Shown piece by piece: positions 47,648 to 60,337 of a DNA stretch of 64,000 bases. The stretch lies in NCBI RefSeq assembly GCF_015350905.1, contig NZ_JADKRZ010000004.1:201924-265923 (forward strand), in the 5' to 3' direction. This DNA comes from Curtobacterium sp. VKM Ac-2865. GTDB taxonomy: Bacteria > Actinomycetota > Actinomycetes > Actinomycetales > Microbacteriaceae. The notes below the pieces were generated by a model. The model saw only the letters and a list, made by a program, of their open reading frames with translations. It was not told where the DNA came from and did no database searches. A program made the translations under genes and the position numbers. The number at the start of each line of letters is the position of its first letter. Positions within the stretch are counted from its first letter, which is position 1.

Positions 47648-48507
47648 CCAGCACACCCGGATCGTCGTCGTCCCACGGGTCGGCCTCCGCCACGCGCGTC
47701 AAGCGCTGGCTCGTCGCCCTCGACATCGACGGCACCGTGATGCGCGAGGACGGCGTCGTCACCCAGGCCACCGTCGACGCCATCCGGGCCGCAGCGGCCG
47801 CCGGGCACGAGGTCATGCTCTCCACCGGTCGCAGTGAGGGCATGACCGTGCCCGTGCTCGAGAAGATCGGCATCCAGCCCGAGTACCTGGTCTGCGCCAA
47901 CGGCGCCGTCACGCTCCGCCGTTCCACTGCCCCCGGAGCGATCGACGGGTACGTGCGCGTCCACGTCGAGACCTTCGACCCGACCGACGTCCTGCAGACC
48001 ATCCGGGGCGCCCTGGCGAACGGCGCGTACGGCGTCGAGTCGCCCGACGGCCGCTACCTGCTCTCCGGGCAGTTCCCCGACGACGCCATGACGAAGCACG
48101 GGGACCACGTGCCCTTCGAGCAGCTGCTCGGCGTGCAGGCCACCCGCGTCGTGGTGATCTCCCCCGAGCACGGGCTCGAGGAGTTCCTGCAGATCGTCGA
48201 CCGCATGGGCCTGCACAAGGTCTCGTACAACGTCGGCTGGACCGCGTGGCTCGACATCGCTCCCGAGGGCGTGACGAAGGCCACCGCGATGGAACGCGTC
48301 CGCGAGTGGTTCGACATCCCGCGCTCCCGGGTGTTCGCCGCCGGTGACGGCCGCAACGACATCGACATGCTGCGGTGGGCGTCCACGTCCGGCCGCGGGG
48401 TCGCGATGGGGCAGGCCCCGGACGACGTCGTCGACGCCGCGAGCGAGATCACCGGGGGCGTCACAGACGACGGCCTGGCGGCCGCGCTCGACACGCTGCC
48501 CCGCTAG
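47644..48507 (+). CDS. Cof-type HAD hydrolase
   Basis: A 287-residue HAD phosphatase, subclass IIB: motif [10 protein letters not shown] with the catalytic Asp pair near residues 24-28, motif II STGRSEG and motif [14 protein letters not shown]. The family hydrolyses sugar phosphates and related metabolites. A Ser-rich lead of about 20 residues precedes the core. ATG overlaps the serS stop (ATGA). This serS-HAD pairing is common in actinobacteria. Confidence 0.93.
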
Positions 48508-48539
48508 CGTTCGTCTGCTGCGTTCCACACGCTCCGCAG

Positions 48540-48553
48540 CCGGGAGGCCCGGT
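48540..48553. repeat. Class I half-repeat upstream of tRNA-Ser
   Basis: CCGGGAGGCCCGGT without its partner arm, directly before the tRNA promoter box; it may be a degraded terminator of the HAD gene. Confidence 0.45.
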
Positions 48554-48558
48554 ACACT
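48553..48558 (+). promoter_or_regulatory. tRNA-Ser -10 box
   Basis: TACACT lies 40 nt before the mature tRNA 5' end, leaving a 5' leader of about 33 nt. Confidence 0.55.
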
Positions 48559-48598
48559 TCCAGGGACCCGGTCACGTCTCGCCACGTGGTCGGGTCGT

Positions 48599-48686
48599 GG
48601 AGGGTTGTCCGAGTGGCCGATGGAGCCTGTCTTGAAAACAGGTGGGCAGAGATGTCTCGTGGGTTCGAATCCCACACCCTCCGCCA
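48599..48686 (+). tRNA. tRNA-Ser (TGA anticodon)
   Basis: A cloverleaf fits: acceptor GGAGGGT (48599-48605) pairs with ACCCTCC (48676-48682), discriminator G and encoded CCA end at 48686. Anticodon stem CCTGT/ACAGG encloses loop CTTGAAA with anticodon TGA (48633-48635). The long variable arm (about 48643-48658) and GGTTCGAATC T-loop are typical of tRNA-Ser. It reads UCA and, with wobble, other UCN codons. Confidence 0.95.
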
Positions 48687-49020
48687 GGTGGCAGTCGCCG
48701 TCCGGTCTGACCGCGCACGACGGCGACCGGTCGTGGGGTCCGGACGGGAAACGAAGCCACTAGCCAGAGAACGCGCGTTCCCGTTTGGGGGCCTTTCGCG
48801 GCCTGCCTCCGGATGGTTTGCTACTCAGGTCGTCAGATGCCGTTGGTACCGGCCTCTGCGAAGGCGTCACCGGGCCGATTCGGGTTCGGCACGGTGACGT
48901 ACGGTGATCGCGTCGCCGTGCCGATTCGGGTTCGGCGCGGTGACGCGATTCCTGTCTCCGGGGCGGTCGAGCCGTGCTGCGGTCACCTGCTGCTGAGGCG
49001 CCCCGCGTAGCGTCGAGGCC
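48687..49020. other. Intergenic stretch with tandem hairpin repeats
   Basis: About 330 bp with no convincing gene. It holds a 12-bp palindrome GAACGCGCGTTC (48769-48780), the two-unit hairpin repeat (48865-48949) and the TAGCGT -10 box (49008-49013) of the next gene. Confidence 0.65.
48865..48949. repeat. Two-copy hairpin repeat
   Basis: Unit 1 (48865-48899) is CGTCACCG, GGCCGATTCGGGTTCGGCA, CGGTGACG. Unit 2 (48907-48949) has arms ATCGCGTCGCCG and CGGTGACGCGAT around the same core. The 25-nt segment starting CCGATTCGGGTTCGGC is repeated with a single change (48875-48899, 48921-48945). Each can fold into a stable stem with an inner dyad GCCGA/TCGGC, a REP/BIME-like architecture. Confidence 0.7.
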
Positions 49021-49671
49021 ATGAGCGACATCATCATCTTCGGCGGCCACGGCAAGGTCGCACTCCTCGCGACGCGCATCCTCAGCGACCGGGGCCACCA
49101 CGTCACGTCCGTCATCCGGAAGGCCGAGCAGGCCGACGAGGCCCGCGCCCACGGGGGCGACCCCAAGGTGGCGGACATCCAGGAGCAGACGATCGCCGGG
49201 TTCGAGGACCTGGTGCGCGGTCAGGACGCCGTCGTGTGGTCAGCGGGCGCCGGCGGAGGATCGGTGGACCGGACCTGGGCCATCGATCGTGACGCCGCCG
49301 TGCTGTCGGTGCAGGCAGCTGCGCGCGCGGGCGTCGAGCGGTACGTCATGGTGTCGTGGTCCGGCTCGGTGCTCGACCACGGCGTTCCCCAGGACAACGA
49401 CTTCTTCGCCTACGCCCAGTCCAAGATGGTCGCCGACGCGGTCGTGCGCGACTCCGGACTCGAGTGGACCATCGTCGCGCCGAGCACCCTGACCGACGAC
49501 GAGCCCACCGGCCAGGTCGACTGGGACGGCGAGGCGTCGAACGTGTCCCGCGGCGACGTCGCGCACGTGATCGCCGACGTGCTCGAGACCGGTGGCACCG
49601 CCGGCAGCACCTACCGGTTCAACACCGGCAGCACCCCGGTCGCCGAGTTCCTCCGCGCCGACCAGGCCTGA
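49021..49671 (+). CDS. NAD(P)H-binding atypical SDR
   Basis: A 216-residue protein with Rossmann motif FGGHGKVAL (residues 7-15) and the NmrA/YwnB-like pattern of atypical SDRs; YVMVSWSGS in the mid region replaces a classical catalytic triad. It is probably a redox-sensing or sugar-modifying protein of unknown substrate. TAGCGT ends 8 nt before the ATG. It is convergent with the two-component regulator gene (16-nt gap). Confidence 0.87.
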   Translation: MSDIIIFGGHGKVALLATRILSDRGHHVTSVIRKAEQADEARAHGGDPKVADIQEQTIAGFEDLVRGQDAVVWSAGAGGGSVDRTWAIDRDAAVLSVQAAARAGVERYVMVSWSGSVLDHGVPQDNDFFAYAQSKMVADAVVRDSGLEWTIVAPSTLTDDEPTGQVDWDGEASNVSRGDVAHVIADVLETGGTAGSTYRFNTGSTPVAEFLRADQA

Positions 49672-49687
49672 GCCGCACCCGCGCGCA

Positions 49688-50329
49688 TCACGGTCGCGCG
49701 GCGAGGTGGTCCAGCACGGCCAGCACCCGGCGGTGGTCGCCCGCCGCCGGGGCCAGGCTGAGCTTGCTGAACAGGGTCGTCACGTGCTTCTCGACCGTGC
49801 CGGGGGCCAGGAACAGCCGATCGGCGATCGCGGCGTTCGTCCGGCCCTCGGCCATGAGCTCCAGCACCTCGCGCTCACGGGCGGTCAGCGCCGCGAACCG
49901 GTCGGTGCGGCGGTCGATGAGCAGCGCCGCGACCTCGGGGTCGAGCACGAGGCCGCCAGCCGCCACGCGCTGCACCGAGTCCAGGAACGGACGGATGTCG
50001 GCGACCCGCTCCTTGAGCAGGTAGCCGACACCGGCCGGGGCGACGTCGAGCAGCATGCGGGCCCAGCGAGCCTCGGCGTACTGGGAGAAGAGCAGGACAC
50101 CGACCTCCGGCGCTGCTGCCTTGATCGCGATCGCGGCGTGGACCCCCTCGTCCGTGTGGGTCGGCGGCATCCGGATGTCCATCACGACCACCTCGGGTGG
50201 ATCAGACCGCACGGCGGCGACCGCCGCGTCGCCTGACGCGACCGCCGACACCTCGTGTCCGCGGGACCCGAGCAGTGACACCAGTCCCTCGCGCAGGATG
50301 ACGTTGTCGTCGGCGACGAGGATCCTCAC
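49688..50329 (-). CDS. LuxR-type response regulator (NarL family)
   Basis: The 213-residue protein has a receiver domain with Asp8/Asp9 and phosphoacceptor Asp51 (VVMDIRMPP), the conserved Lys in LLKERV, and a C-terminal LuxR helix-turn-helix (LTAREREVLELMAEGRTNAAIADRL). It overlaps its kinase gene by 4 nt and would be phosphorylated by it. Confidence 0.94.
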   Translation of the reverse strand: MRILVADDNVILREGLVSLLGSRGHEVSAVASGDAAVAAVRSDPPEVVVMDIRMPPTHTDEGVHAAIAIKAAAPEVGVLLFSQYAEARWARMLLDVAPAGVGYLLKERVADIRPFLDSVQRVAAGGLVLDPEVAALLIDRRTDRFAALTAREREVLELMAEGRTNAAIADRLFLAPGTVEKHVTTLFSKLSLAPAAGDHRRVLAVLDHLAARP

Positions 50330-51654
50330 GCGGGGACCCCGGGGAAGCGCATCGCGATGCGGGTCGGACCACCGGCGGGGCTGTCGATGGTCAGCGTCCC
50401 GTCGACGGTGCGCAGGCGGTCGGCCACGCCGGCGAGACCCGTCCCGCCGGTCTGCGGGTCGAGGGAGACGTGCGCCCCGCCGACGCCGTCGTCCTCGACC
50501 GTGACGAGCATGTCCGCGCCGTCCCGCGACACCACGACCTGCGCGCGCGTCGCCCTGGCGTGCTTGACGACGTTCGTCAGCAGCTCAACCACGGTGAAGT
50601 AGGCGGCGCTCTCCACGACGGCCGACGGCCGGAGGGTGCGGTCGTGGCGGACCTGCACCGGCAGGGTGGTGCGGGACACGGCGGAGGCGATCGCAGCCTC
50701 CAGGCCTTCGTCGAGCGCCGCGGGGTGGATGCCGCGCGCGATCTCGCGGAGCTCGGTGATCGTCTCCTGCGTCGACCGCCGGGCGTGCTCGACCAGGCGA
50801 CCGACCGAGGCGGGGTCCTCCCCGTCCTGCAGGCGGTCCTGCGCGTCCCCGAGCGTCATCGCCAGGGCGACCAGCCGTGCCTGCGTGCCGTCGTGCAGGT
50901 CGCGCTCGACGCGACGGAGCGTGTCGTCGGCACCCCGGACGCTGTCGTCGCGCGACCGGGTGAGCTCGGCGACCCGGCGCTCACCGGTGGTGCTGCCGAG
51001 CAGGCTGCGGACCAGGGCGCCCTGTCCTGCGGCGAGCCCACGGTTGACCGGCGGCCACACGAACACCAGCAGCAGGAGCCCGACGACCGTGGCGACCGCC
51101 TGCATGAGGGGGGTGTCGACGAAGACGGTGCCGACCTGGATGCCGGAGTGGAGCACGCCGTCCTCGTCGGTCATCGGCGTGAGCCAGTGCGACCAGACCC
51201 AGTTGGTGGTCAGGCCGACGGCGGTCACGAGGACGGTGATCGTGACGACGAAGGCGATGACCGACGTGACGAACGCGACGAGGCCGAAGGCGAGCGCACG
51301 CCAGCTCGGTGCGTGGCGGAGTCGTGCCGTCGTCCACCCGACGACCCCGGGGCGACCGCGCGGCGCGGGCGGCGTCTGCACGTCCACGCCGAGGAGCCCA
51401 CGAGCGACCCGACGGAACGCGGCCCCGAACCAGGTGTTCCCGACCACCAGGAACGCCGTCACGGGGAGTCCCACCCAGAGGACCGCGAACGGGATGCCGG
51501 CCGAGAGCGTGAGGACGGACCAGGTGAAGCCGGCGATCGCCAGCGGCAGCGCCGCCATGTGGAAGGCGAAGTCGCGCCAGGTCCGGGGGTCGACGAGGCC
51601 GAGGACGAAGGTCCGACGTGCCCGGGGGAGCGGTCGGGCGGCGAGTGTGCTCAT
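50326..51654 (-). CDS. Sensor histidine kinase (HisKA_3 type)
   Basis: A 442-residue kinase: N-terminal putative-sensor membrane domain with about four to six helices (residues 20-225), HisKA_3 dimerisation domain with phospho-His in ERDLHDGTQARLVAL (near residue 265), and an HATPase domain (LTNVVKHARAT, EDDGVGGA, GGTGLAGVADRL). The signal is unknown; this class often senses membrane or envelope stress. ATG at 51654 replaces an upstream extension. Divergent from a TetR gene. Confidence 0.93.
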   Translation of the reverse strand: MSTLAARPLPRARRTFVLGLVDPRTWRDFAFHMAALPLAIAGFTWSVLTLSAGIPFAVLWVGLPVTAFLVVGNTWFGAAFRRVARGLLGVDVQTPPAPRGRPGVVGWTTARLRHAPSWRALAFGLVAFVTSVIAFVVTITVLVTAVGLTTNWVWSHWLTPMTDEDGVLHSGIQVGTVFVDTPLMQAVATVVGLLLLVFVWPPVNRGLAAGQGALVRSLLGSTTGERRVAELTRSRDDSVRGADDTLRRVERDLHDGTQARLVALAMTLGDAQDRLQDGEDPASVGRLVEHARRSTQETITELREIARGIHPAALDEGLEAAIASAVSRTTLPVQVRHDRTLRPSAVVESAAYFTVVELLTNVVKHARATRAQVVVSRDGADMLVTVEDDGVGGAHVSLDPQTGGTGLAGVADRLRTVDGTLTIDSPAGGPTRIAMRFPGVPA

Positions 51655-51729
51655 GGGGACAAGCGTGGCAGTGCCCGTGGTCCGGGCGACACCGGGTTCT
51701 CCCCCGTTCCCGCCCGGTAGCGTTGAGCC

Positions 51730-52350
51730 GTGCGTGACGTGGGTGGGACAGGACGACGCGACGTGATCGTCGAGGCGGCTGCGCGGGAGTTCGACCGCGA
51801 CGGCTACGCGACGGCGAGCATCGCCGGCATCGCGCGGGCCGCGGGCGTCAGCCAGGGGGCGTTGCACCGGACCTTCCCGACCAAGCACGCGGTGGCGCTC
51901 GCCGTGATCGACGAGCAGAACGCCCGGACGTTCGCGGCGATGAGCGCGGGTGACCCGTCGCCGATCGGGACGCTGGTGCGGGCGTCACGCGGGATCGCCG
52001 ACCTGCTGATGCGCGACGTCGTCGTCCGTGCCGGCATCCGGATCTCCCTGGAGCACGGTGTCCTGGCCCGGCAGACGGCGAGCTTCTACGAGCAGTGGAT
52101 CGCGGGTGTGGTCGACGAGTTCCGGCTTGCAGTCGCCAGGGGCGAGGTCACCACGGACCTGTCGCCCGAAGCCCTCGGCGGGACCGTCGTGCCGTACTTC
52201 ACCGGGGTGCAGCTCGTGTCGAACGTGCGCTCCGGGCGTGCGGACCTGCTGCCGGTGGTGGCGACGATGTGGCGGGTGCTCGTCCACGCGGTCGTCGAGC
52301 GGGCGCACCGGGAACGTCTGCTGCGGGTCGTCGACGAGGTGTTCGCGTGA
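51730..52350 (+). CDS. TetR regulator, gamma-butyrolactone-receptor-like
   Basis: A 206-residue TetR protein with helix-turn-helix ATASIAGIARAAGVSQGALHRTFPTK (near residues 26-51). The C-terminal part (RAGIRISLEHGV, YFTGVQLVSNVRSG, PVVATMWRVLVHAVV) resembles ScbR/ArpA-type autoregulator receptors of Streptomyces. GTG at 51730 lies 7 nt after TAGCGT. No butenolide or butyrolactone synthase gene is nearby, so the ligand is open. It overlaps the next gene by 4 nt. Confidence 0.85.
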   Translation: MRDVGGTGRRDVIVEAAAREFDRDGYATASIAGIARAAGVSQGALHRTFPTKHAVALAVIDEQNARTFAAMSAGDPSPIGTLVRASRGIADLLMRDVVVRAGIRISLEHGVLARQTASFYEQWIAGVVDEFRLAVARGEVTTDLSPEALGGTVVPYFTGVQLVSNVRSGRADLLPVVATMWRVLVHAVVERAHRERLLRVVDEVFA

Positions 52351-53081
52351 GTGGTTCGTCCCCGGCGTCCGGGGCCTGGCGTCGTGCCGGTCGGCCTGGG
52401 GCCGGTCGTCGTGCTGCTGCTGGTGGCGGTGGCCGGGCGCGCCGGGGCCGTCTCCGTGGCCCGCTCGGGTGCCTGGTCGGCGTCGCGGCGGTCGTCCTGG
52501 TGCTGGCCGTCGGGCTCACGGTGTTCGTCCTCGTCACCCGCGCGACGATGAACGAGGCGCCGGGGACGGCGCTGACCGGGTCGATCAGCCGTGACGTCGA
52601 CGTCGACGTGACCATGACGTTCCGCTCGCTCGACCGCGCGACCGAGGCGCAGGCGGACGCGTGGGGGCACGCCGGCATCGTGGACGCGAACACGCTGACG
52701 GAGGGCGAACCCTACGTGGCCGTGGTCGACGTGGCGATCCCGACGGACGCGACGATCACCGAGGACGACTGGGACCTGTTCGCCTGGACCGGTCGGCACG
52801 GGGAGGACGGCCGGGCGCAGGACGTCAGGGCGACGCGCGACGCGTCCGTCCCCGAGGGTTGCGTCGTGGACCGGGCGGCGCTCACCGCGGCGCTGAACGA
52901 CCGGGGGAGCGCCCGGTACTGCGCGCTCATCCGGTCGGACGTCGAGCCGGAGGCCGTCGCGTACGGGTGGCTGTACCGGGAGAGCAGCACCGGACGACGC
53001 GGCACGATGTCGGCGACGACCACCTACACGCCGCGGTGGAGCGTCGGTGACGTCGGGGTGTGGAACGGCTCGGCGCGCTGA
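52347..53081 (+). CDS. Single-pass membrane-anchored protein, unknown
   Basis: A 244-residue protein: Ala/Gly/Arg-rich cytoplasmic tail (1-40), one transmembrane helix (about 43-68, LGCLVGVAAVVLVLAVGL), and an extracytoplasmic domain of about 170 residues with two Cys (EGCVV, RYCAL) that could form a disulfide. No family recognised. The GTG overlaps the TetR stop (GTGA), so it is probably made together with the regulator. Confidence 0.72.
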   Translation: MSGSSPASGAWRRAGRPGAGRRAAAGGGGRARRGRLRGPLGCLVGVAAVVLVLAVGLTVFVLVTRATMNEAPGTALTGSISRDVDVDVTMTFRSLDRATEAQADAWGHAGIVDANTLTEGEPYVAVVDVAIPTDATITEDDWDLFAWTGRHGEDGRAQDVRATRDASVPEGCVVDRAALTAALNDRGSARYCALIRSDVEPEAVAYGWLYRESSTGRRGTMSATTTYTPRWSVGDVGVWNGSAR

Positions 53082-53098
53082 TCCATCCACATACTGCA

Positions 53099-53113
53099 TA
53101 CCAAATCCTGGTA
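53099..53113. promoter_or_regulatory. Candidate operator of the TA cassette
   Basis: Inverted repeat TACCA, AATCC, TGGTA lies 19 bp before the TAGGGT -10 box (53132-53137), in an AT-richer patch; CTGGT recurs at 53108-53112, 53114-53118 and 53121-53125. A ribosome site (GGAAGGGAG, 53145-53153) follows. Autorepression by the cassette is inferred. Confidence 0.5.
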
Positions 53114-53157
53114 CTGGTGTCCTGGTCCGCGTAGGGTCGTCAGCGGAAGGGAGCACC

Positions 53158-53730
53158 ATGACCACCGCACCGGGAGTCGCGGCCCTGGTCCTCGACGAGC
53201 TCGGGGGATCCGCGGACGCCTACAAGTTGCAGAAGCTCGTCTACTACTGCCAGGCCTGGCACGTCACGCAGACCAAGCGTCCGATGTTCGACGGGGTCAT
53301 CCAGGCCTGGAAGCACGGGCCGGTCGCCGTGGACCTGTGGCCGCTCCACAAGGGGCACTACCGTGTCACGTCCGCGATGGTCGGTCCTGGCGGAGGCGCT
53401 GTCCTCGACGACTACGCCCTCGCGGTCCTCCGGAGCGTGGTGCAGTACTACGGGCGGCTCGAGTCCGACGCCCTCGTGGAGCTCACACACGCCGAGGAAC
53501 CGTGGCGCTCGGTCTACGTCCCGGACAGGAACAACGCGATCACGACGGACGCGATGCGCTCCTTCTACTCGAAGCTCCTGGCGGGCGACGGGCCGGTTCC
53601 CGACCTGCCACCGTCGAACATCCGGTACGTGACGGACGACCAGTTCGCCGTCCTCGCGTCAGCTTCTGACGACGACTCGGTGAACGCCCGGTTCGCAGCG
53701 GCGGTGTTGCGCCGGCGGGACCGGGCATGA
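53158..53730 (+). CDS. Panacea (SocA/DUF4065) domain putative antitoxin
   Basis: A 190-residue protein whose N-terminal two-thirds match the Panacea domain: ADAYKLQKLVYYCQAWHVT (residues 19-37), FDGVIQAWKHGPVAVDLW (44-61), and HAEEPWRSVY later. Panacea proteins (SocA in Caulobacter, PanA) neutralise toxins encoded beside them. The rest (about 140-190) is variable and may contact the toxin. Its TGA overlaps the next ATG (ATGA), coupling expression to a TacT-like GNAT. Start ATG with a good GGAAGGGAG site. Codon use is less GC-extreme than in neighbours, consistent with transfer. Confidence 0.9.
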   Translation: MTTAPGVAALVLDELGGSADAYKLQKLVYYCQAWHVTQTKRPMFDGVIQAWKHGPVAVDLWPLHKGHYRVTSAMVGPGGGAVLDDYALAVLRSVVQYYGRLESDALVELTHAEEPWRSVYVPDRNNAITTDAMRSFYSKLLAGDGPVPDLPPSNIRYVTDDQFAVLASASDDDSVNARFAAAVLRRRDRA

Positions 53731-54281
53731 AGCCCTGGGTGTCGATCGAACGGCTCAGTCACACACATCGCCTCCAACTGCTCGACTGTGGTGACGAGTG
53801 GATGAACTGCTGGGTCCGTGAACGGGCGCGCAAGGACGACCGAGCAGGTCGGACCGCCGTGCACGTCGCCCTGAACTCCGTCGGCGCCGTGGTCGCGGTC
53901 TACGCGCTGAACCACGGGTCGATCGAGGTGGCGGGAGGGCGCCAGGAGCTCCGAGCCGTTCAGCTCCAACGGCTGGCCGTACACCGGGCGCACCAGGGCC
54001 GAGGGCACGGGACGCAACTCCTGCTCGAAGCGAGCCGTGCGGCTCTGGTCGCAGCAAGCGTCGTTCCAGCCAAGCACTTCGTGGTCGAGGCCTCGGACGA
54101 GTGCCGCGCGTCCTGGTACGAAGCCCACGGTTTCATCCGTTGCGTCGGATCGTCGTTGTGGCTCAGCATGCCGATCAGCGCACTCCGTTCGACGATCGCT
54201 GCCCTCGACACCGGAACGGCGACGGTCGACGCCTTCGAACGGAGCCGCGCGTTCGCTCACTCCGACACCCGCACTCGCTGA
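53727..54281 (+). CDS. TacT-like GNAT putative toxin
   Basis: A 184-residue GNAT acetyltransferase. The order CGDEWMNCWVRERARKDDRAG (residues 21-41), VVAVYALNHGSIE, LQRLAVHRAHQGRGHGTQLL (80-99, with acetyl-CoA loop Q90-GRGHG) and CRASWYEAHGF (126-136, Tyr131) follows the TacT/AtaT toxin plan, in which aminoacyl-tRNAs are acetylated and translation stops. Those toxins normally pair with an RHH (DUF1778) antitoxin; here the partner is a Panacea protein. A roughly 30-residue C-terminal tail extends beyond the usual fold. Toxicity is inferred, not shown. Confidence 0.85.
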   Translation: MKPWVSIERLSHTHRLQLLDCGDEWMNCWVRERARKDDRAGRTAVHVALNSVGAVVAVYALNHGSIEVAGGRQELRAVQLQRLAVHRAHQGRGHGTQLLLEASRAALVAASVVPAKHFVVEASDECRASWYEAHGFIRCVGSSLWLSMPISALRSTIAALDTGTATVDAFERSRAFAHSDTRTR

Positions 54282-54303
54282 CTGTCCGCCAGGGAGCCCC
54301 GGG

Positions 54304-54732
54304 TCAGACGTCGTGGAGCTCGCGGTCCCGGAACCACTTGAGCAGCCACGCGGCGCTCGTGCGGTCGAAGGACCGCGGGAAGTCCGTCGCACCGGAGAGG
54401 AACGGGCTGAAGCCCTCGACCGCGTGCAGGTCCTCGTCGTCGAGCCCGCGGAAGGCCATCGACCAGCCGTCGAACCGGCGCCGTTCGATGTCCTCGCGGA
54501 TGAGTGACGTGATCTCCAGGTGCCGGGCATCGCGGGAGATCGCGGCGAAGCGGTCGTCGACGCTCCAGGCCGGACCTTCGAGCAGCTGCATGAACCGGCC
54601 GCCCTTGGCGACGAGGAGACCGGAGACGCCCATGGCCTCGTTCCGGAGCCGCGAACCCTTGAGGAGTTCCGCGAGGTCGTCGTCACCGAAGTCGTCGGCA
54701 GCGCGACTCATGTAGACGATCGAGACGAGCAT
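54304..54732 (-). CDS. Stand-alone BLUF blue-light sensor
   Basis: A 142-residue protein that is a single BLUF domain plus C-terminal helices. All key flavin residues align with AppA at a constant offset of 14: Tyr7 (VYMSR), Asn31 (RNEAMGVSGLL), Gln49 (FMQLLEG), Trp90 and Met92 (GWSMAFR). BLUF proteins bind FAD and shift hydrogen bonds in blue light, then act through a partner. No output domain or adjacent partner is evident. It is convergent with the GNAT gene. Confidence 0.93.
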   Translation of the reverse strand: MLVSIVYMSRAADDFGDDDLAELLKGSRLRNEAMGVSGLLVAKGGRFMQLLEGPAWSVDDRFAAISRDARHLEITSLIREDIERRRFDGWSMAFRGLDDEDLHAVEGFSPFLSGATDFPRSFDRTSAAWLLKWFRDRELHDV

Positions 54733-54749
54733 CCGACCATCTTGCCGTG

Positions 54750-55169
54750 TCAGGCGTCGCGATGCCCCGTGGAGGACTGGAATCGGATGAGGTAGCCGTC
54801 GGGGTCGGCGACGAGGAACTGCCGGACCCCGGCTTCGGTGTCACCCGTCCGGTACCACTTCGTCTCGGGCTGCATGAAGAGGGCCACACCCGCATCGACG
54901 AGCCGGGTGGCGATCGCGTCGCTGTCGGTCACGGTGACCTGGAGGTTCATCCCGCGACCGAACGGCACGGCGAGGGGCCCGACGAGCCAGTTCCGCCCGA
55001 TGCCGACCTGTTCGAGCATCAGGTGCGCGGACCCGAGCGTCAGGAAGGCGAACCGCTCGTCGGGGCGGTCGTACGCCACGGTGAAGCCGCACAGGTCGAT
55101 CCAGAACCGGAGGCTCGCATCGAGGTCCGTCACGAGGAGCTCGGGGACCAGAGCCGGTTCCGTGGTCAT
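54750..55169 (-). CDS. VOC family protein, bleomycin-resistance-like
   Basis: A 139-residue vicinal oxygen chelate fold with VPELLVTDLDASLRFW (residues 8-23), HLMLEQVG, LQVTV and terminal DPDGYLIRFQSS. Similar small VOC proteins bind bleomycin-type drugs or are lyases; no specific function is visible. ATG at 55169. It ends 17 nt before the BLUF start on the same strand, so they may be co-transcribed. Confidence 0.87.
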   Translation of the reverse strand: MTTEPALVPELLVTDLDASLRFWIDLCGFTVAYDRPDERFAFLTLGSAHLMLEQVGIGRNWLVGPLAVPFGRGMNLQVTVTDSDAIATRLVDAGVALFMQPETKWYRTGDTEAGVRQFLVADPDGYLIRFQSSTGHRDA

Positions 55170-55275
55170 GGCACCATCGTGCCACCGTGCGGCGACCGGG
55201 ACGCGTCGTCTCCGAGCAGATCGTGGACCCAGTACGCCAGACAGCTCGCGCCGGCTCCGCGCAGGTGAAGGACTG

Positions 55276-55295
55276 CAGGGCAGAGCGGTGCCCTG
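55276..55295 (-). terminator. Small hairpin after the 60-residue gene
   Basis: A 7-bp stem CAGGGCA/TGCCCTG (55276-55282 with 55289-55295), 27 nt beyond the stop of the minus-strand small gene. Weak terminator candidate. The rest of the 55170-55321 gap shows nothing recognisable. Confidence 0.35.
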
Positions 55296-55321
55296 GTCCC
55301 GCGTTGCTCCACTCGACCGGG

Positions 55322-55504
55322 CTACCGGTCGGCACGGCTGGCGTACCAGCGGTCGAGCGCGTCCTTCTCCGATGCCGCGAGCGTCTTCCGTGCTGCCGTG
55401 GCGCGGTACCGGTCGGCGAGCGCGACACGTTCGTCGTCGGTCAGTCCGTCGGAGCCGACAGGTCGGACACCACCGACGGGGAAGAGCGAGACGTTCGTGG
55501 CCAT
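55322..55504 (-). CDS. Small hypothetical protein (60 residues)
   Basis: A 60-residue soluble protein ending in charged helical sequence (LTDDERVALADRYRATAARK). No family recognised. Support comes from a TACCGT -10 box 7 nt before the ATG and codon pattern. It could be a coding fragment. Confidence 0.5.
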   Translation of the reverse strand: MATNVSLFPVGGVRPVGSDGLTDDERVALADRYRATAARKTLAASEKDALDRWYASRADR

Positions 55505-55579
55505 GAGGCAACGGTACGTCACCGGCACCGCATCACGGCAGCGATCCTCGGACCTGTGGAGAACGCCGTCGGGGACGAC

Positions 55580-56038
55580 TCAGACGTCGGCGCGACGGAC
55601 GAACACCCAGCGGCTCATCGCCCAGTAGCGGAACACCATCGCGATCGCGGTCCCGATGACGGGCCCGCTGACGAAGTCCGCGATCTCCTGCGTCGCACGG
55701 CTCACGTGGGGGACCTCGAGGCCGAAGGCGTACCGCGACAGGTACAGCGGTGCCGAGTTCAGCGCGATGCCGATGGCGCTGACGATCACGAAGTAGAGCA
55801 TCTCGAGCCCGGTGTGCCGACCCCCGCGGTCGCCGAACGACCACTTCTTGTTGAGCCAGTACGACACGACGGTCGCCACGACGGTGCCGATGACGAGTGC
55901 GCTGACGGGGTGCTGCGGGATGACGAAGAGCTTCAGGCCGTAGTTGATGGCCATCGTGAGCAGGAAGCCGATGCCTCCCACGACCAGGAACCGTCCCGCT
56001 GAGGGGTACCGGCGGAACAACCGGAGCAGTGCGTCCAT
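55580..56038 (-). CDS. GtrA family membrane protein
   Basis: A 152-residue protein with four transmembrane helices and the GtrA pattern: RFLVVGGIGFLLTMAINYGL (first helix), VVSYWLNKKWSF in the loop, and a closing FRYWAMSRWVFV. GtrA proteins are thought to flip polyprenyl-phosphate sugars or support glycosyltransferases. ATG at 56038 is favoured by a CATACT box 8 nt upstream; an ATG at 56056 is possible. It is divergent from the phosphatase gene. Confidence 0.9.
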   Translation of the reverse strand: MDALLRLFRRYPSAGRFLVVGGIGFLLTMAINYGLKLFVIPQHPVSALVIGTVVATVVSYWLNKKWSFGDRGGRHTGLEMLYFVIVSAIGIALNSAPLYLSRYAFGLEVPHVSRATQEIADFVSGPVIGTAIAMVFRYWAMSRWVFVRRADV

Positions 56039-56097
56039 CAGGATCAGTATGACCATGCGGGGCCCCGTCGAGCGAATCCGACCCGGCCCAGCGTGAA

Positions 56098-56103
56098 TAG
56101 GAT
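56098..56103 (+). promoter_or_regulatory. -10 box of phosphatase gene (leaderless)
   Basis: TAGGAT ends 8 nt before the ATG at 56111. Confidence 0.65.
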
Positions 56104-56110
56104 CGTGCGC

Positions 56111-56827
56111 ATGGCCACCGTCCTCCTCGTCCGGCACGGACGCACCATCGCCAACGCGACCGGGCTCCTGGCAGGACGGACCGCGGGCGTCGCGCTCGAC
56201 TCGGTCGGCAAGCGGCAGGCGGCCACGATGGCGGAGCGCATCGGCGCGGTGCCCCTGGCAGCGGTGGTGTCCAGCCCGCTCGAGCGGTGCCGGCAGACGG
56301 CCAGGGCGATCACGGCGTTCCAGCAGGGGGAGCCGCAGCAGTTCGTCGAGCGCGGCATCATCGAGGCGGACTACGGCGACTGGCAGAACCGCAAGATCAG
56401 CGACCTGGCGAAGGAACCGCTGTGGCGCGTGGTGCAGGCGAACCCGAGCGCGGTGGTGTTCCCCGGCGGAGAGTCGATGCAGACCATGCAGTCGCGTGCC
56501 GTCGCGGCGATCCGACGGCTCGACGCGCAGGTCGAGGCCGAGCACGGACCGAACGCGGTCTGGGTCGCGGTGAGCCACGGCGACATCATCAAGTCCGTCC
56601 TCGCCGACGCCCTCGGCATGCACCTCGACCTGTTCCAGCGGATCACGGTCGGGCCCGCGTCGGTGTCCGTCGTCCGCTACGGCGAGCACCGGCCCGAGGT
56701 CGTCGCGACGAACACCGAATCCGGTGACCTGTCCTGGCTCGCGAAGGCACCCGCCCCGACGGGCGACGCGGCGATCGGCGGCGGGGCAGGGAACCCGGCG
56801 CCCGAAGACGGCGCCGCACCAGCCTGA
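56111..56827 (+). CDS. Histidine phosphatase family protein
   Basis: A 238-residue phosphoglycerate-mutase-like protein with catalytic LVRHGRTIAN (RHG near residues 8-10), Glu in IIEADYGDW and the second His in VAVSHGDIIKSV. The C-terminal 40 residues are an Ala/Gly/Pro-rich tail. It starts the conserved phosphatase-DUF3090-SCO1664 series of actinobacteria (Rv2135c-Rv2134c-Rv2133c). Substrate unknown. Confidence 0.92.
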   Translation: MATVLLVRHGRTIANATGLLAGRTAGVALDSVGKRQAATMAERIGAVPLAAVVSSPLERCRQTARAITAFQQGEPQQFVERGIIEADYGDWQNRKISDLAKEPLWRVVQANPSAVVFPGGESMQTMQSRAVAAIRRLDAQVEAEHGPNAVWVAVSHGDIIKSVLADALGMHLDLFQRITVGPASVSVVRYGEHRPEVVATNTESGDLSWLAKAPAPTGDAAIGGGAGNPAPEDGAAPA

Positions 56828-56931
56828 CGGGGTCGCGAGGACGGCGCCGCGGACGCCCCCTGGAGCTGCGACGACGGTCCCGTTCGGAGACGGGTACTGC
56901 CAGACCCTGAACGGGCGCAGGCTGGCGCTCC

Positions 56932-56937
56932 TACAAT
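56932..56937 (+). promoter_or_regulatory. -10 box of DUF3090 gene (leaderless)
   Basis: TACAAT, near consensus, ends 7 nt before the ATG at 56944, inside the 116-bp gap after the phosphatase gene. Confidence 0.7.
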
Positions 56938-56943
56938 GCCGGT

Positions 56944-57468
56944 ATGCCCACCATCGTCCACGGATTCGACTGGCCGGATCGTCTCGTCGTCGGCACCATC
57001 GGGCGCCCCGGTGAGCGGAGCTTCTACCTGCAGGCGCGCGACGGCCGCCGGGTGGTGAGTGTCGCCCTCGAGAAGGAACAGTCCGCTGTCCTGGCCGAGA
57101 AGCTCGACGAGCTCCTCGACGAGGTCGCCACGGTGGAGGAGAACCGCTTCAGCGTCCCGCCCACCGTCCCGCGTGAGCTCCACGACGTGGACCCGCTCGA
57201 CCAGCCCGTTGAGCCAGAGTTCCGCGCCGGCGCCCTGAGCCTGGGGTTCGACCCGGCGACGGCGCAGGTCGTCATCGAGGCCTACCCGATCGAGGACGAG
57301 GTCGAGATCACCGAGGAGCCCGGCGAGGACGGCGAGATCGAGGCCGTCGTCGAGATGCCCGAACCCGCCGAACTGCTCCAGGTGAAGATCCCGGTCGGGA
57401 CTGCCCGTGCCTTCGTCGAACGGACACGCGAAGTGGTGGCCGCGGGACGGCTGCCCGGCGAGGCATGA
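56944..57468 (+). CDS. DUF3090 family protein
   Basis: A 174-residue protein that matches DUF3090 along its length: FDWPDRLVVGTIGRPGERSFYLQARDG, VALEKEQSAVLAEKLDELLDEV and the terminal VGTARAFVERTREVVAAGRL. The acidic patch near residues 118-140 is normal for the family. Function unknown; it is strictly associated with the SCO1664 gene that overlaps its stop. Confidence 0.93.
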   Translation: MPTIVHGFDWPDRLVVGTIGRPGERSFYLQARDGRRVVSVALEKEQSAVLAEKLDELLDEVATVEENRFSVPPTVPRELHDVDPLDQPVEPEFRAGALSLGFDPATAQVVIEAYPIEDEVEITEEPGEDGEIEAVVEMPEPAELLQVKIPVGTARAFVERTREVVAAGRLPGEA

Positions 57469-58229
57469 GCGAGGCGCCGGAACCGTCCGGCATGTCGCTC
57501 ACGGCCCGCATCCGCGAGGCCTCGAACGCCACGTTCCTCGCGGAGCTCGACGGCCACGAGGTCGTCTACAAGCCCATCGCCGGCGAGAAGCCGCTCTGGG
57601 ACTTCCCGGACGGCACCCTGGCTGGTCGTGAGTACGCCGCGTTCCTGGTGTCGGAGGCCTTCGGCTGGCGTGTGGTCCCGCCGACCTGGCTCGGCACCGG
57701 ACCGCTCGGGCTCGGCATGGTCCAGCGGTGGCAGGACGTCGACCCCGAACAGGACGCCGTCGACGTGGTCCCGACGGACCAGGCAGAGGCGTCGGGCATG
57801 AAGACCGTGCTCGAGGCCATCGACGAGCACGACCGGCCCGTCACCCTGGTGCACGAGGACACCGCGGCGCTCCGGCGCATGGCCGTCTTCGACGTCGTCG
57901 TCAACAACGCGGACCGCAAGGGCGGACACGTCCTCGCGATGCCGGACGGCCACCGCCACGGCGTCGACCACGGGCTCACCTTCCACGTCGAGCACAAGCT
58001 CCGCACGGTGCTCTGGGGATGGGTCGACGAGGCACTCGACGCGGACGAGCTCGCTGGACTCGAACGGGTCGTCACGGCCCTGCACGGTGACCTGGGCGAG
58101 CAGCTCACCGAGCACCTGACCGTGGACGAGATCGACAACCTCGAGGCGCGCTGCGCCGCGCTGGCGGCCGTCGGCCGCTTCCCACCACCGGCCGGGTACG
58201 GCCCGGCGGTGCCCTGGCCGTTGTTCTAG
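57465..58229 (+). CDS. SCO1664 family protein (kinase-like)
   Basis: The 254-residue protein has features of a PI3/4-kinase-like fold: VYKPIAGEKPLWDFPDGTLAGREYAAFLVSEAFGW (nucleotide Lys region), VFDVVVNNADRKGGHVL (catalytic-loop-like) and GVDHGLTFHVEHKLRTVLW (metal-binding-like). Function unknown. It overlaps DUF3090 by 4 nt. The next gene in the usual actinobacterial order, mshC, is absent; a class I repeat and a convergent vWA gene follow. Confidence 0.92.
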   Translation: MSEAPEPSGMSLTARIREASNATFLAELDGHEVVYKPIAGEKPLWDFPDGTLAGREYAAFLVSEAFGWRVVPPTWLGTGPLGLGMVQRWQDVDPEQDAVDVVPTDQAEASGMKTVLEAIDEHDRPVTLVHEDTAALRRMAVFDVVVNNADRKGGHVLAMPDGHRHGVDHGLTFHVEHKLRTVLWGWVDEALDADELAGLERVVTALHGDLGEQLTEHLTVDEIDNLEARCAALAAVGRFPPPAGYGPAVPWPLF

Positions 58230-58237
58230 ACCACAGC

Positions 58238-58281
58238 CGGACTGGAGGCTCGGTGCCAGCTGGCGACGAGCCTCCAGTCCG
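58238..58281. terminator. Class I inverted repeat between convergent genes
   Basis: Perfect 15-bp arms CGGACTGGAGGCTCG (58238-58252 with 58267-58281), 14-nt loop, 8 nt after the SCO1664 stop and 13 nt before the end of the vWA gene. It carries the CTGGAGG variant. Confidence 0.78.
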
Positions 58282-58294
58282 TCACGTCCGACGC

Positions 58295-60337
58295 TCAGCC
58301 GAAGCGGCCGAACGCGCCGCCACCACTCCAGTCGTCGTCGCGGAAGAGCGCACCACCGCTCCGGGACCCGAGGTACGAGCCGACCACGGCCACGCCGAGG
58401 TCGTCGTTCTCCGGTGCCGTGACCGTGCCGTCGACGCGCCGGGCCATGCCGTCGATGAACCGGGCGAGCCCCGGGTCGTCGCCGAGGCGGAAGAACGTCG
58501 TCTGGGCGCCGAGCCGATGGGCGTTCTCGAGCTCCCGGACGCTCAGCGCGATCGTCATCGGGTCGGGTGGGTAGCTGAAGTACACCTGCCCGTTCGGCTC
58601 GAGGTGCGAGGTCGGCTCGCCGTCGGTGACGATGAGCAGCACCGGCTGTGCCGTCGGGTGCTTCCGGAAGTGCCGGTTGGCGAGCAGCAGCGCGTGGTGC
58701 AGGTTCGTGCCCTTGTCCCACTCGGCGTCGAGCCCGACGAGCTGTTCGACGTCCATCACCTCGGCCTCGCGACCGAAGGCGATCAGCTGCAGGTCGTCGC
58801 CGCGGAACCGGGTCGAGATGAGCGTGTGCAACGCCAGGGCGGTGCGCTTCATCGGGACCCAGCGGTCCTCCATCGCCATCGAGAACGAGGTGTCGACGAG
58901 CAGTGCCACGCAGGCCTGCGTGCGGGCCTCGGTCTCCTGGACCTCGACGTCGTCGATCGTCAGCCGCACGGCGGCGCCGTCACGGCCTGACGCTGCCGTG
59001 CGGGTGACGGCGTTCGTGATGGTGCGGGGGATGTCCCACGGCTCGGTGTCCCCGAACGCCCACTGACGCGTCGCGCCGGACGGTTCGCCCGAGGCTCCGG
59101 ACCGGCGGAGGTCCCGTGCGCCCTGCCGCCCCGACATCTTCTGGGCGACGTCCTTGAGCAGGCTCTTGCCGAGCTGCCGCATGGCCTTCGGGGTGAGCTT
59201 GTACTGGCCGTCGGCACCGCGGCGCATGGTGCCCGAGTTCTGCAGGGCCTTCTCGAGCTGCTGCAGGGTGCGGGCGTCGACCGCGGCGTCGGACCCGAGC
59301 TGTCGGGCCAGGGACTCGAGGTCCAGGTCGTCCAGGTCGGAGCCTGGGCTGGACTGCGCCAGCTGCTCGGCGAGGGCGTCGAGGTCGGAGATGTCCTGGA
59401 ACGCGCCGGTGCCGTCACCGAGCCCGAGCCCCTGCTCGCCGTCCATCCGCTCGGAACCACCCCAGTCCTCGCCGGGGCGGAGGGCACGGAGGTTGCCGTC
59501 GAGCTGCGACAGCGCCCCCATCAGGTCGGGGCTGCCGAAGGCCTGTTGCGCGAGGGCGTCGAGCTCGTCGCGCTGCTCCTGCGTCATCGAGTTCCGCATC
59601 CGCTGGGCGGCTGCGGACCGGGCGGCGAGGTCGTCGAGGAGCTCGTCGACGTTCTTCGGGTCGGACGGGAAGTACTCCCCGTGCTTCGCCATGAACTCGT
59701 CGAACTGCTCCTGCGAGTCGGTGCCGGCGCGGTGGTCATCGAGCAGCTGGTTGAGGTCCTGCATCATCGCGCTGACCTCGGCGCGGTCGTCGTCGCTGGC
59801 GTCCTCGAGCGCCTGCTTCATGCCGGCGAAGCGCTGGTCGAGCATCTCCCGCCCGAGCAGGTCCTTGATCTCCTCGTACTTCTGACGGGCCGCGGGGCTC
59901 GTCCAGTCGTAGCCGGAGAGCTCGGTCACGGCGGCCGCAGGCGACGGCGGCAGGCTGTCGAGCTGCATCTCGGCCAGTGCCCGGTCCCCGTCCTCGATGT
60001 CGACGTTGCGGGCCAGCTCGCCGCGCTCGGCCAGGACGGCCTCGTCGAGGAGCTGACGGATCTGCTGCAGCGTGCCGTCGAGGTTGTTCCTGCTCGTCAG
60101 CTCGCGGCGCTTCTCGGCCACGCGACGAGCGAGGTCGTCGAGGCCGCGCTGGTCACGACCGCCGCGGCGCAGGAACTCCCGCATCGCGCGCTCCGGGGAG
60201 TACCCGGCCATGACGTCCTGTCCGATGGCGTCGAGCGCCTCGGACACGTCGGCGGGCGGCGCGAGCGGGTCTGGGCCGCCCTCGTACCGCCCGTACCGGG
60301 TGTCCCGTGACAGCCGGCGGTTCTGCCGACTAGCCAT
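58295..60337 (-). CDS. vWA domain protein paired with MoxR ATPase
   Basis: A 680-residue cytoplasmic protein. The long N-terminal helical region (about 1-400) is acidic and rich in Gln, Asp and Leu; the C-terminal von Willebrand A domain carries the MIDAS motif VDTSFSM (DxSxS) near residue 477, a following Thr, and VTDGEPT. Such proteins work with MoxR/BchI-type AAA+ ATPases in metal insertion or complex assembly. Its start overlaps the ATPase gene by 8 nt, so they are co-translated. Confidence 0.92.
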   Translation of the reverse strand: MASRQNRRLSRDTRYGRYEGGPDPLAPPADVSEALDAIGQDVMAGYSPERAMREFLRRGGRDQRGLDDLARRVAEKRRELTSRNNLDGTLQQIRQLLDEAVLAERGELARNVDIEDGDRALAEMQLDSLPPSPAAAVTELSGYDWTSPAARQKYEEIKDLLGREMLDQRFAGMKQALEDASDDDRAEVSAMMQDLNQLLDDHRAGTDSQEQFDEFMAKHGEYFPSDPKNVDELLDDLAARSAAAQRMRNSMTQEQRDELDALAQQAFGSPDLMGALSQLDGNLRALRPGEDWGGSERMDGEQGLGLGDGTGAFQDISDLDALAEQLAQSSPGSDLDDLDLESLARQLGSDAAVDARTLQQLEKALQNSGTMRRGADGQYKLTPKAMRQLGKSLLKDVAQKMSGRQGARDLRRSGASGEPSGATRQWAFGDTEPWDIPRTITNAVTRTAASGRDGAAVRLTIDDVEVQETEARTQACVALLVDTSFSMAMEDRWVPMKRTALALHTLISTRFRGDDLQLIAFGREAEVMDVEQLVGLDAEWDKGTNLHHALLLANRHFRKHPTAQPVLLIVTDGEPTSHLEPNGQVYFSYPPDPMTIALSVRELENAHRLGAQTTFFRLGDDPGLARFIDGMARRVDGTVTAPENDDLGVAVVGSYLGSRSGGALFRDDDWSGGGAFGRFG

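Follow-up and report, generated by a model that had tools for sequence, protein, structure and literature searches.

Two overlapping genes in a 64,000-nucleotide stretch of DNA from Curtobacterium sp. VKM Ac-2865 (the window) are best read, on the strength of their sequences, as encoding a Panacea antitoxin and a TacT-like GNAT toxin. We think it rather probable that they constitute a mobile type II DUF4065(Panacea)-GNAT cassette in which neutralisation is achieved mainly via the C-terminal tail of the antitoxin, PanA. The locus belongs to a published, thinly studied kind of toxin-antitoxin (TA) system, of which, to our knowledge, one pair has been tested. GNAT-paired Panaceas bear a C-terminal extension that most other Panaceas lack and that in some profile comparisons is similar to the tail by which TacA1 binds its toxin; these observations are possibly new.

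The gene pair and its cassette

The panA-like gene (53158-53730, forward strand; 190 aa, P0001) directly adjoins a putative GNAT toxin gene (53727-54281, forward strand; 184 aa, P0002). P0001 matched the Pfam family SocA_Panacea (PF13274) with 61.6 bits against a cut-off of 25.7, the match spanning residues 24-116 (53227-53505, forward strand) and positions 1-112 of the 113 in the profile, which upholds the assignment of the first gene to Panacea (SocA/DUF4065) in an earlier note on this DNA. The score of P0001 against the NCBIfam model SocA_antitoxin (NF047745) was 54.7 bits, under the 190-bit cut-off, and a Pfam scan of PanA found no domain other than Panacea. Searches of the PDB with P0001 and with the Panacea profile each returned only weak, chance-level matches, and PADLOC gave no lead on the pair. 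P0002 matched Acetyltransf_7 (PF13508) with 37.8 bits (cut-off 27), and phmmer against the PDB returned 16 distinct sequences at E ≤1, of which the best was 6g96 (6.8e-14). These include KacT (5zgn), the other names being acetyltransferases, most of which we take to be TacT/AtaT-type toxins. Tyr131 of P0002 (codon 54117-54119, forward strand) aligns with a Phe in 6g96, presumably the Y143F variant of TacT3, and hence with the catalytic tyrosine position of that toxin. The window GNAT thus has both the sequence homology and the catalytic tyrosine position of the TacT type, and the earlier view of the second gene as a TacT-like GNAT stands. According to the main text of PMC5959882, TacT3 toxicity is abolished by Y143F.

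Both ORFs and their quoted motifs lie where the earlier note had placed them, as do the ATGA overlap of the two genes (53727-53730, forward strand) and the upstream dyad TACCA-AATCC-TGGTA (53099-53113). The pattern TACCA-N5-TGGTA has this dyad as its sole match in the 64-kb window and had none in 100 shuffles. It was, however, picked post hoc, and in the orthologous locus of Curtobacterium sp. VKM Ac-1395 (L062) the right arm is not kept but reads TGACA; the dyad is therefore unsupported as an operator. A ribosome-binding-like sequence, GGAAGGGA (53145-53152, forward strand), 5' of the panA ATG at 53158, is kept in L062. The single promoter that had been proposed for the pair was not confirmed, as consensus scans gave no sigma-70-like site; they gave no terminator either.

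The L062 orthologue is 87% identical in PanA, and comparison of the two loci indicates purifying selection on both genes. PanA differs by 34 synonymous and 25 non-synonymous codon changes in 191 codons (dN 0.064, dS 0.295, dN/dS ~0.22) and the GNAT by 18 and 16, respectively, in 185 codons (dN 0.045, dS 0.156, dN/dS ~0.29).

The pair is a clean presence/absence cassette. In a relative, G1261, the stretch corresponding to 53082-54275 (forward strand) is absent and its flanks join directly, such that sequence through window position 53081 runs straight into 54276; this view of the empty site comes from that one genome. In the window CGCTGA stands at both edges of the cassette, as the stop of the upstream gene and the stop of the GNAT, and the cassette is flanked by a hypothetical gene and a BLUF gene. 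P0001 found a match in 6 of 66 genomes of the genus and the cassette locus is present in two of the 66 (G000 and G1280), the G1280 locus giving the same scores as the window's. The G+C content is 67.9% in the pair and 71.6% in the window, which comes from a genome of 3.73 Mb. Inspection by eye of the ORF list from 48000 to 60000 revealed no recognisable recombinase, and a search of plasmids gave no record covering 80% of P0001. The BLUF blue-light sensor gene directly downstream (54304-54732, other strand) matched PF04940 with 91.9 bits, and several genomes of the genus have a second, more distant BLUF match. The segment 54752-55578, which holds a gene that we take to be glyoxalase/VOC-like, is missing in L285, L286 and L293, where blastn alignments break off at 54751 and pick up again at 55579; judged from these alignments, it is a second small indel near the TA cassette.

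Partners and phylogeny of the two genes

Within the window's family, GNAT relatives were found at 42 places in 38 of 199 genomes. At 41 of these places a TacA1 gene (PF08681) lies no more than 207 bp away, in the same orientation and mostly (37/41) upstream of the GNAT; the window's GNAT alone adjoins Panacea. The toxin gene comes first, in reverse order, in four of the 41 TacA1-GNAT pairs (L012, L022, G096 and G095:C1:317318). PF13274 occurs in two of the 38 GNAT-bearing genomes, and beside the GNAT in G000 only. The window's genome contains no match to PF08681 (the DUF1778 ribbon-helix-helix antitoxin) at E ≤0.001 and, in that sense, no TacAT pair.

Panacea-GNAT pairs were collected from Curtobacterium (the window and L062), from Gardnerella and Bifidobacterium (L042/L134, L110 and L105), from family f4 with a viral contig of identical sequence (L038/L144), from Coriobacteriia (L064, L065, L131 and L141 and, by gene order, L227, L228 and the remnant L226), from the viral contigs L142 and L145, and from family f3 (L304, L305, L330, L332 and L333), which we guess to be Actinomycetaceae. 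L304 and L305, whose genus is at a guess Varibaculum, carry the same Panacea-GNAT pair and tail as the window and may be the VcaT system or close kin. Because the sample was collected by similarity to such pairs, it says little on their overall frequency; among the loci retrieved from 396 genomes of the phylum the window's is the only GNAT-paired Panacea. In 396 genomes of the order the best Panacea matches after the window's own were L033 and L034 (42% and 39% identity), which are paired with Fic/Doc (the L033 partner by Pfam, that of L034 by motif), as are two other Curtobacterium Panaceas, L280 (Pfam) and L281 (motif).

Three further kinds of locus were encountered. An intact GNAT-type PanA stands with a truncated, split or decayed GNAT in L226, L065/L223 and L141/L222, that is, with the toxin lost and the antitoxin kept. 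On viral contig L146 (277-1568) and in L282 (1411-2713), from a genome of the window's genus, Panacea is followed by an ORF starting DCNVWLD or DVNVYLD, respectively, which we assume to be PIN-like; the ORF in L282 matched no Pfam family. In Mycobacterium phage prophi68-1 (L192:3001-3953) the labels look swapped, as the 'GepA-like toxin' is a Panacea and the 'antitoxin' is Fic/Doc (PF02661).

A 39-row GNAT tree separated 10 Panacea-paired sequences from 29 TacA1-paired ones (support 91/90), and one of 64 rows, constructed without L012 and L013, separated 12 Panacea-paired sequences from 52 (support 96/76); neither branch was starred. A quick GNAT tree that included the divergent pairs gave 16 against 52 with an SH-aLRT of 96, a value that carries a long-branch warning, the window being joined with L142. 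Fragmentary GNAT matches of L065 and L141 were left out before these counts, and near-copies were dropped (L134 and L144 from the GNAT trees; L065, L134, L144 and L221-L225 from the Panacea trees). The window GNAT lies on the Panacea-paired side and does not branch among TacA1-paired toxins, in keeping with membership of clade C of Bikmetov et al. 2022, defined in the main text of PMC9177977 as GNAT toxins adjoining DUF4065 proteins. The survey of GNAT neighbourhoods that the earlier note had suggested as a check thus has a divided outcome: at 41 of 42 places in the family the GNAT is beside TacA1, yet the window GNAT belongs to the Panacea-paired side of the tree. The suggestion that the pairing might be new was not borne out and is rejected, clade C and VcaA-VcaT having been published (main text of PMC9177977).

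When the tail was excluded, a tree of Panacea cores with 80 other Panaceas as background brought 14 GNAT-paired rows together with one intruder, L146, which nests with them although its next ORF is no GNAT; a single GNAT-paired clade was not rejected (p-AU 0.84). With 15 GNAT-paired rows and a background of 54, the single clade had a p-AU of 0.80 and the free tree needed four changes. Together with the GNAT trees this favours co-inheritance of the two genes. The simplest reading is one origin for the main group of Panacea-GNAT pairs, while the divergent L330, L332 and L333 may be separate lineages.

The C-terminal extension of PanA

The segment that follows the core in GNAT-paired Panaceas has the form P-x-[L/F] ... 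[V/I]-[S/T]-x-x-[D]-x-x-[W/L]-L, from which some rows deviate at positions. In the window the extension, common to GNAT-paired Panaceas, comprises residues 146-190 (53593-53727, forward strand), and we propose it as a GNAT-neutralising tail. The comparison took in 204 Panacea ORFs, with duplicates counted and those below 40 bits left out. Position 165 of profile A4 is reached by every one of the 21 ORFs that have a GNAT directly downstream (14 distinct loci) and by three of the 183 that have none. These three are L226, which has a GNAT remnant, and the Fic/Doc-paired L192 (by Pfam) and L034 (by motif). It should be emphasized that much of this association is built in, since A4 contains 10 of the 14 distinct GNAT-paired loci; the rows outside A4 are L227, L228, L304, L305, L333, the remnant L226 and the near-copies L065 and L110, and it is the first five that carry weight. 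In the f3 loci 30 Panacea ORFs reached the 40-bit threshold: three have a GNAT and the A4 tail, 25 have neither and two have a GNAT and no A4 tail, so that two of the five GNAT-adjacent Panaceas there fall short of it.

Visual comparison with a TacA motif first suggested the likeness of this tail to that of TacA, ahead of any test, and the likeness appeared in some tests and not in others. For the PanA tail of the window itself a TacA1-tail HMM gave no signal, as 137 of 200 shuffles did equally well. For six of 12 tails only 4-9 of 200 shuffles were as good, two of these six aligning in another register. Applied to whole proteins, the HMM did not set GNAT-paired Panaceas apart from 62 others. 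Compared profile with profile, the PanA and TacA1 tails scored 24.45, and none of 100 column shuffles was as high. A sliding-window comparison put its four top-scoring PanA windows in the tail (21.6-24.5), against a maximum of 11.1 in three other alignments (112 windows, best four per alignment listed), and full length against full length the tail-to-tail alignment was the one picked (E 0.003, probability 10%). In the window the profile match covers approximately residues 156-186 (53623-53715, forward strand).

With hhalign, 13 tails scored 25.3 against 29 Microbacteriaceae TacA1 (0/300 column shuffles as high, maximum 13.2), 26.7 against 56 pooled TacA1 tails (0/200, maximum 12.3) and 17.7 against 21 TacA1 beside GNATs in other actinobacteria (0/200, maximum 12.1), the last of these signals being carried by the window group (18.7), with the remaining ten tails giving 9.2. 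The comparison with six proteobacterial/PDB tails yielded 11.4, which is at chance level (shuffle maximum 15.1, reversed control 11.6) and equal to the score of the Fic/Doc-paired tails (11.4), while the same six tails matched those of Microbacteriaceae TacA1 strongly (57.5). Three Fic/Doc-paired tails scored 7.3 against Microbacteriaceae TacA1. The short tails of L330 and L332 (FFIDEHVWAALDELD and WFVDQPVWDRLEAVE) gave 17.8 against Microbacteriaceae TacA1 (0/100 shuffles) and, with a pool of 62 rows, 15.2 (1/100), and the L333 tail gave 17.0 (0/100) and 12.8 (5/100), respectively. Across the tail comparisons hhalign probabilities ranged from 0.8 to 75%. The TacA1 stretch that is matched (profile positions 46-81) corresponds to the peptide chain solved in 7ak8, and antitoxin chains covering the tail alone are found in structures with GNAT toxins, namely 7ak8_G ('TacA1 antitoxin peptide', 39 aa), 6gtq_C (46 aa) and 9ilr_B (42 aa). 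These comparisons suggest that the PanA tail probably resembles the TacA1 tail in function, and homology between the two is possible. A TacA1-like tail on Panacea was not met in the literature consulted (PMC9177977, PMC8832971, PMC10440598, PMC5959882, PMC10135005, PMC9431474, PMC9241777 and PMC7470980); the words GNAT and acetyltransferase are absent from the main texts of PMC8832971 and PMC10440598.

It could be argued that the pair is the same TA system but that the folded Panacea core blocks the GNAT, the extension serving to aid folding, dimerisation or sensing. In the main text of PMC10440598, stand-alone Panacea neutralises some toxins directly and core substitutions abolish neutralisation; furthermore, the similarity between the PanA and TacA1 tails is modest and two tests failed. 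Such a role for the core is nevertheless unlikely, as the extension largely tracks the GNAT partner among the Panaceas examined and, where it matches, is in register with a known GNAT-binding tail.

Proposed mechanism and relation to known systems

For the window pair we infer a mechanism centred on the tail, in which the GNAT would be toxic by acetylating the amino group of a charged tRNA, such that translation stops, and PanA would neutralise it through direct binding. By analogy with VcaT, the likeliest target would be Gly-tRNA-Gly; the main text of PMC9177977 reports that, in VcaA-VcaT of Varibaculum cambriense, the toxin is neutralised by its partner and mainly acetylates Gly-tRNA-Gly. 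The grip of PanA would come mainly from its C-terminal tail, through the amphipathic stretch h-[S/T/D]-x-x-x-[F/W]-x-x-L, and this tail would be akin to that by which TacA, KacA and AtaR antitoxins bind GNAT toxins. It may hold the GNAT as the Phd-C tail holds Doc on the Doc-paired PanA of Corynebacterium doosanense (main text of PMC10440598). The antitoxins would differ only in their N-terminal half, which is a ribbon-helix-helix DNA-binding domain in TacA and Panacea here, the Panacea core possibly acting as a sensor, as hypothesized in the main text of PMC10440598. A real, if tentative, possibility is that GNAT-paired Panaceas carry a TacA1-type GNAT-binding tail, inherited or re-evolved when Panacea replaced the ribbon-helix-helix half; should L330/L332 and L333 be separate lineages, this replacement occurred more than once.

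The tRNA target is the least certain step of the mechanism, because the window GNAT has lost the loop preceding the LGRLAV strand, which is mostly retained in the Panacea-paired GNATs aligned with it. That strand reads LQRLAV in the window GNAT, which is also a long branch (28% and 25% identity to the GNATs of L038 and L042), and together with the lost loop these features suggest that its target may differ. The WY motif is present in 12 of 12 Panacea-paired GNATs checked, and a loose acetyl-CoA-loop pattern, which the window GNAT has, is absent from three of the 12. Searches with P0002 gave no lead in viral contigs and only one weak cyanophage match in phages.

The divergence of the window GNAT, with its shortened loop and LQRL for LGRL, would also suit a small-molecule or protein acetyltransferase accompanied by a Panacea regulator, with no toxin involved. 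We regard this as very unlikely, since relatives of this GNAT are paired with TacA1 or Panacea, GNAT toxins are among its PDB matches, the WY motif has been retained, and the cassette is patchy with an empty site. Highly improbable as well is a type VI-like system in which PanA is a proteolytic adaptor that passes the GNAT to ClpXP, in the manner in which SocA delivers SocB (PMC9177977, main text). SocA shares the Panacea family, and the type of VcaAT was left open by Bikmetov et al. 2022; however, VcaT amounts were comparable with and without VcaA (PMC9177977, main text), and in the main text of PMC8832971 five PanA-toxin pairs form stable complexes and neutralisation by PanA is independent of ClpXP and Lon. 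That the module is decaying and its toxin dead, as the truncated or split GNAT genes beside intact PanA in L226, L065 and L141 might suggest, is scarcely credible, since in the window and in L062 alike the two reading frames are intact and their dN/dS is low.

The locus adds Curtobacterium to the range of a little-explored TA family, and does so with a precisely defined empty site. The preferred reading, neutralisation mainly through the PanA tail, bears on whether VcaA-VcaT is of type II or type VI, which Bikmetov et al. 2022 did not settle, and on how Panacea neutralises a GNAT. If it is true, Panacea-GNAT pairs would be chimeric, with an exchange confined to the sensing or DNA-binding half, VcaAT-type systems would be type II by linear neutralisation, and a further classical antitoxin tail would have been recognised on Panacea, after Phd-C on Doc-paired PanA.

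Of the known systems, SocA-SocB, the type VI system of Caulobacter, resembles the window's pair in having a Panacea-domain antitoxin, but SocA hands its toxin to ClpXP, and SocB is unrelated to GNAT. PanA-Doc with Phd-C shares the proposed architecture, in which a Panacea core is followed by a neutralising C-terminal tail of the kind seen in classical antitoxins; there, however, the toxin is Fic/Doc, and Fic/Doc-paired tails, as their score indicates, are unlike those of Microbacteriaceae TacA1. The DUF1778-GNAT systems TacA-TacT, AtaR-AtaT and KacA-KacT have a homologous GNAT, the same catalytic Tyr position and the same antitoxin-toxin order, whereas the N-terminal half of their antitoxins is ribbon-helix-helix where that of the window's is Panacea. 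VcaA-VcaT likewise consists of a Panacea/DUF4065 antitoxin beside a TacT-like GNAT, and the GNAT trees set Panacea-paired GNATs apart from the TacA1-paired ones; what distinguishes the window GNAT is its long branch and shortened loop.
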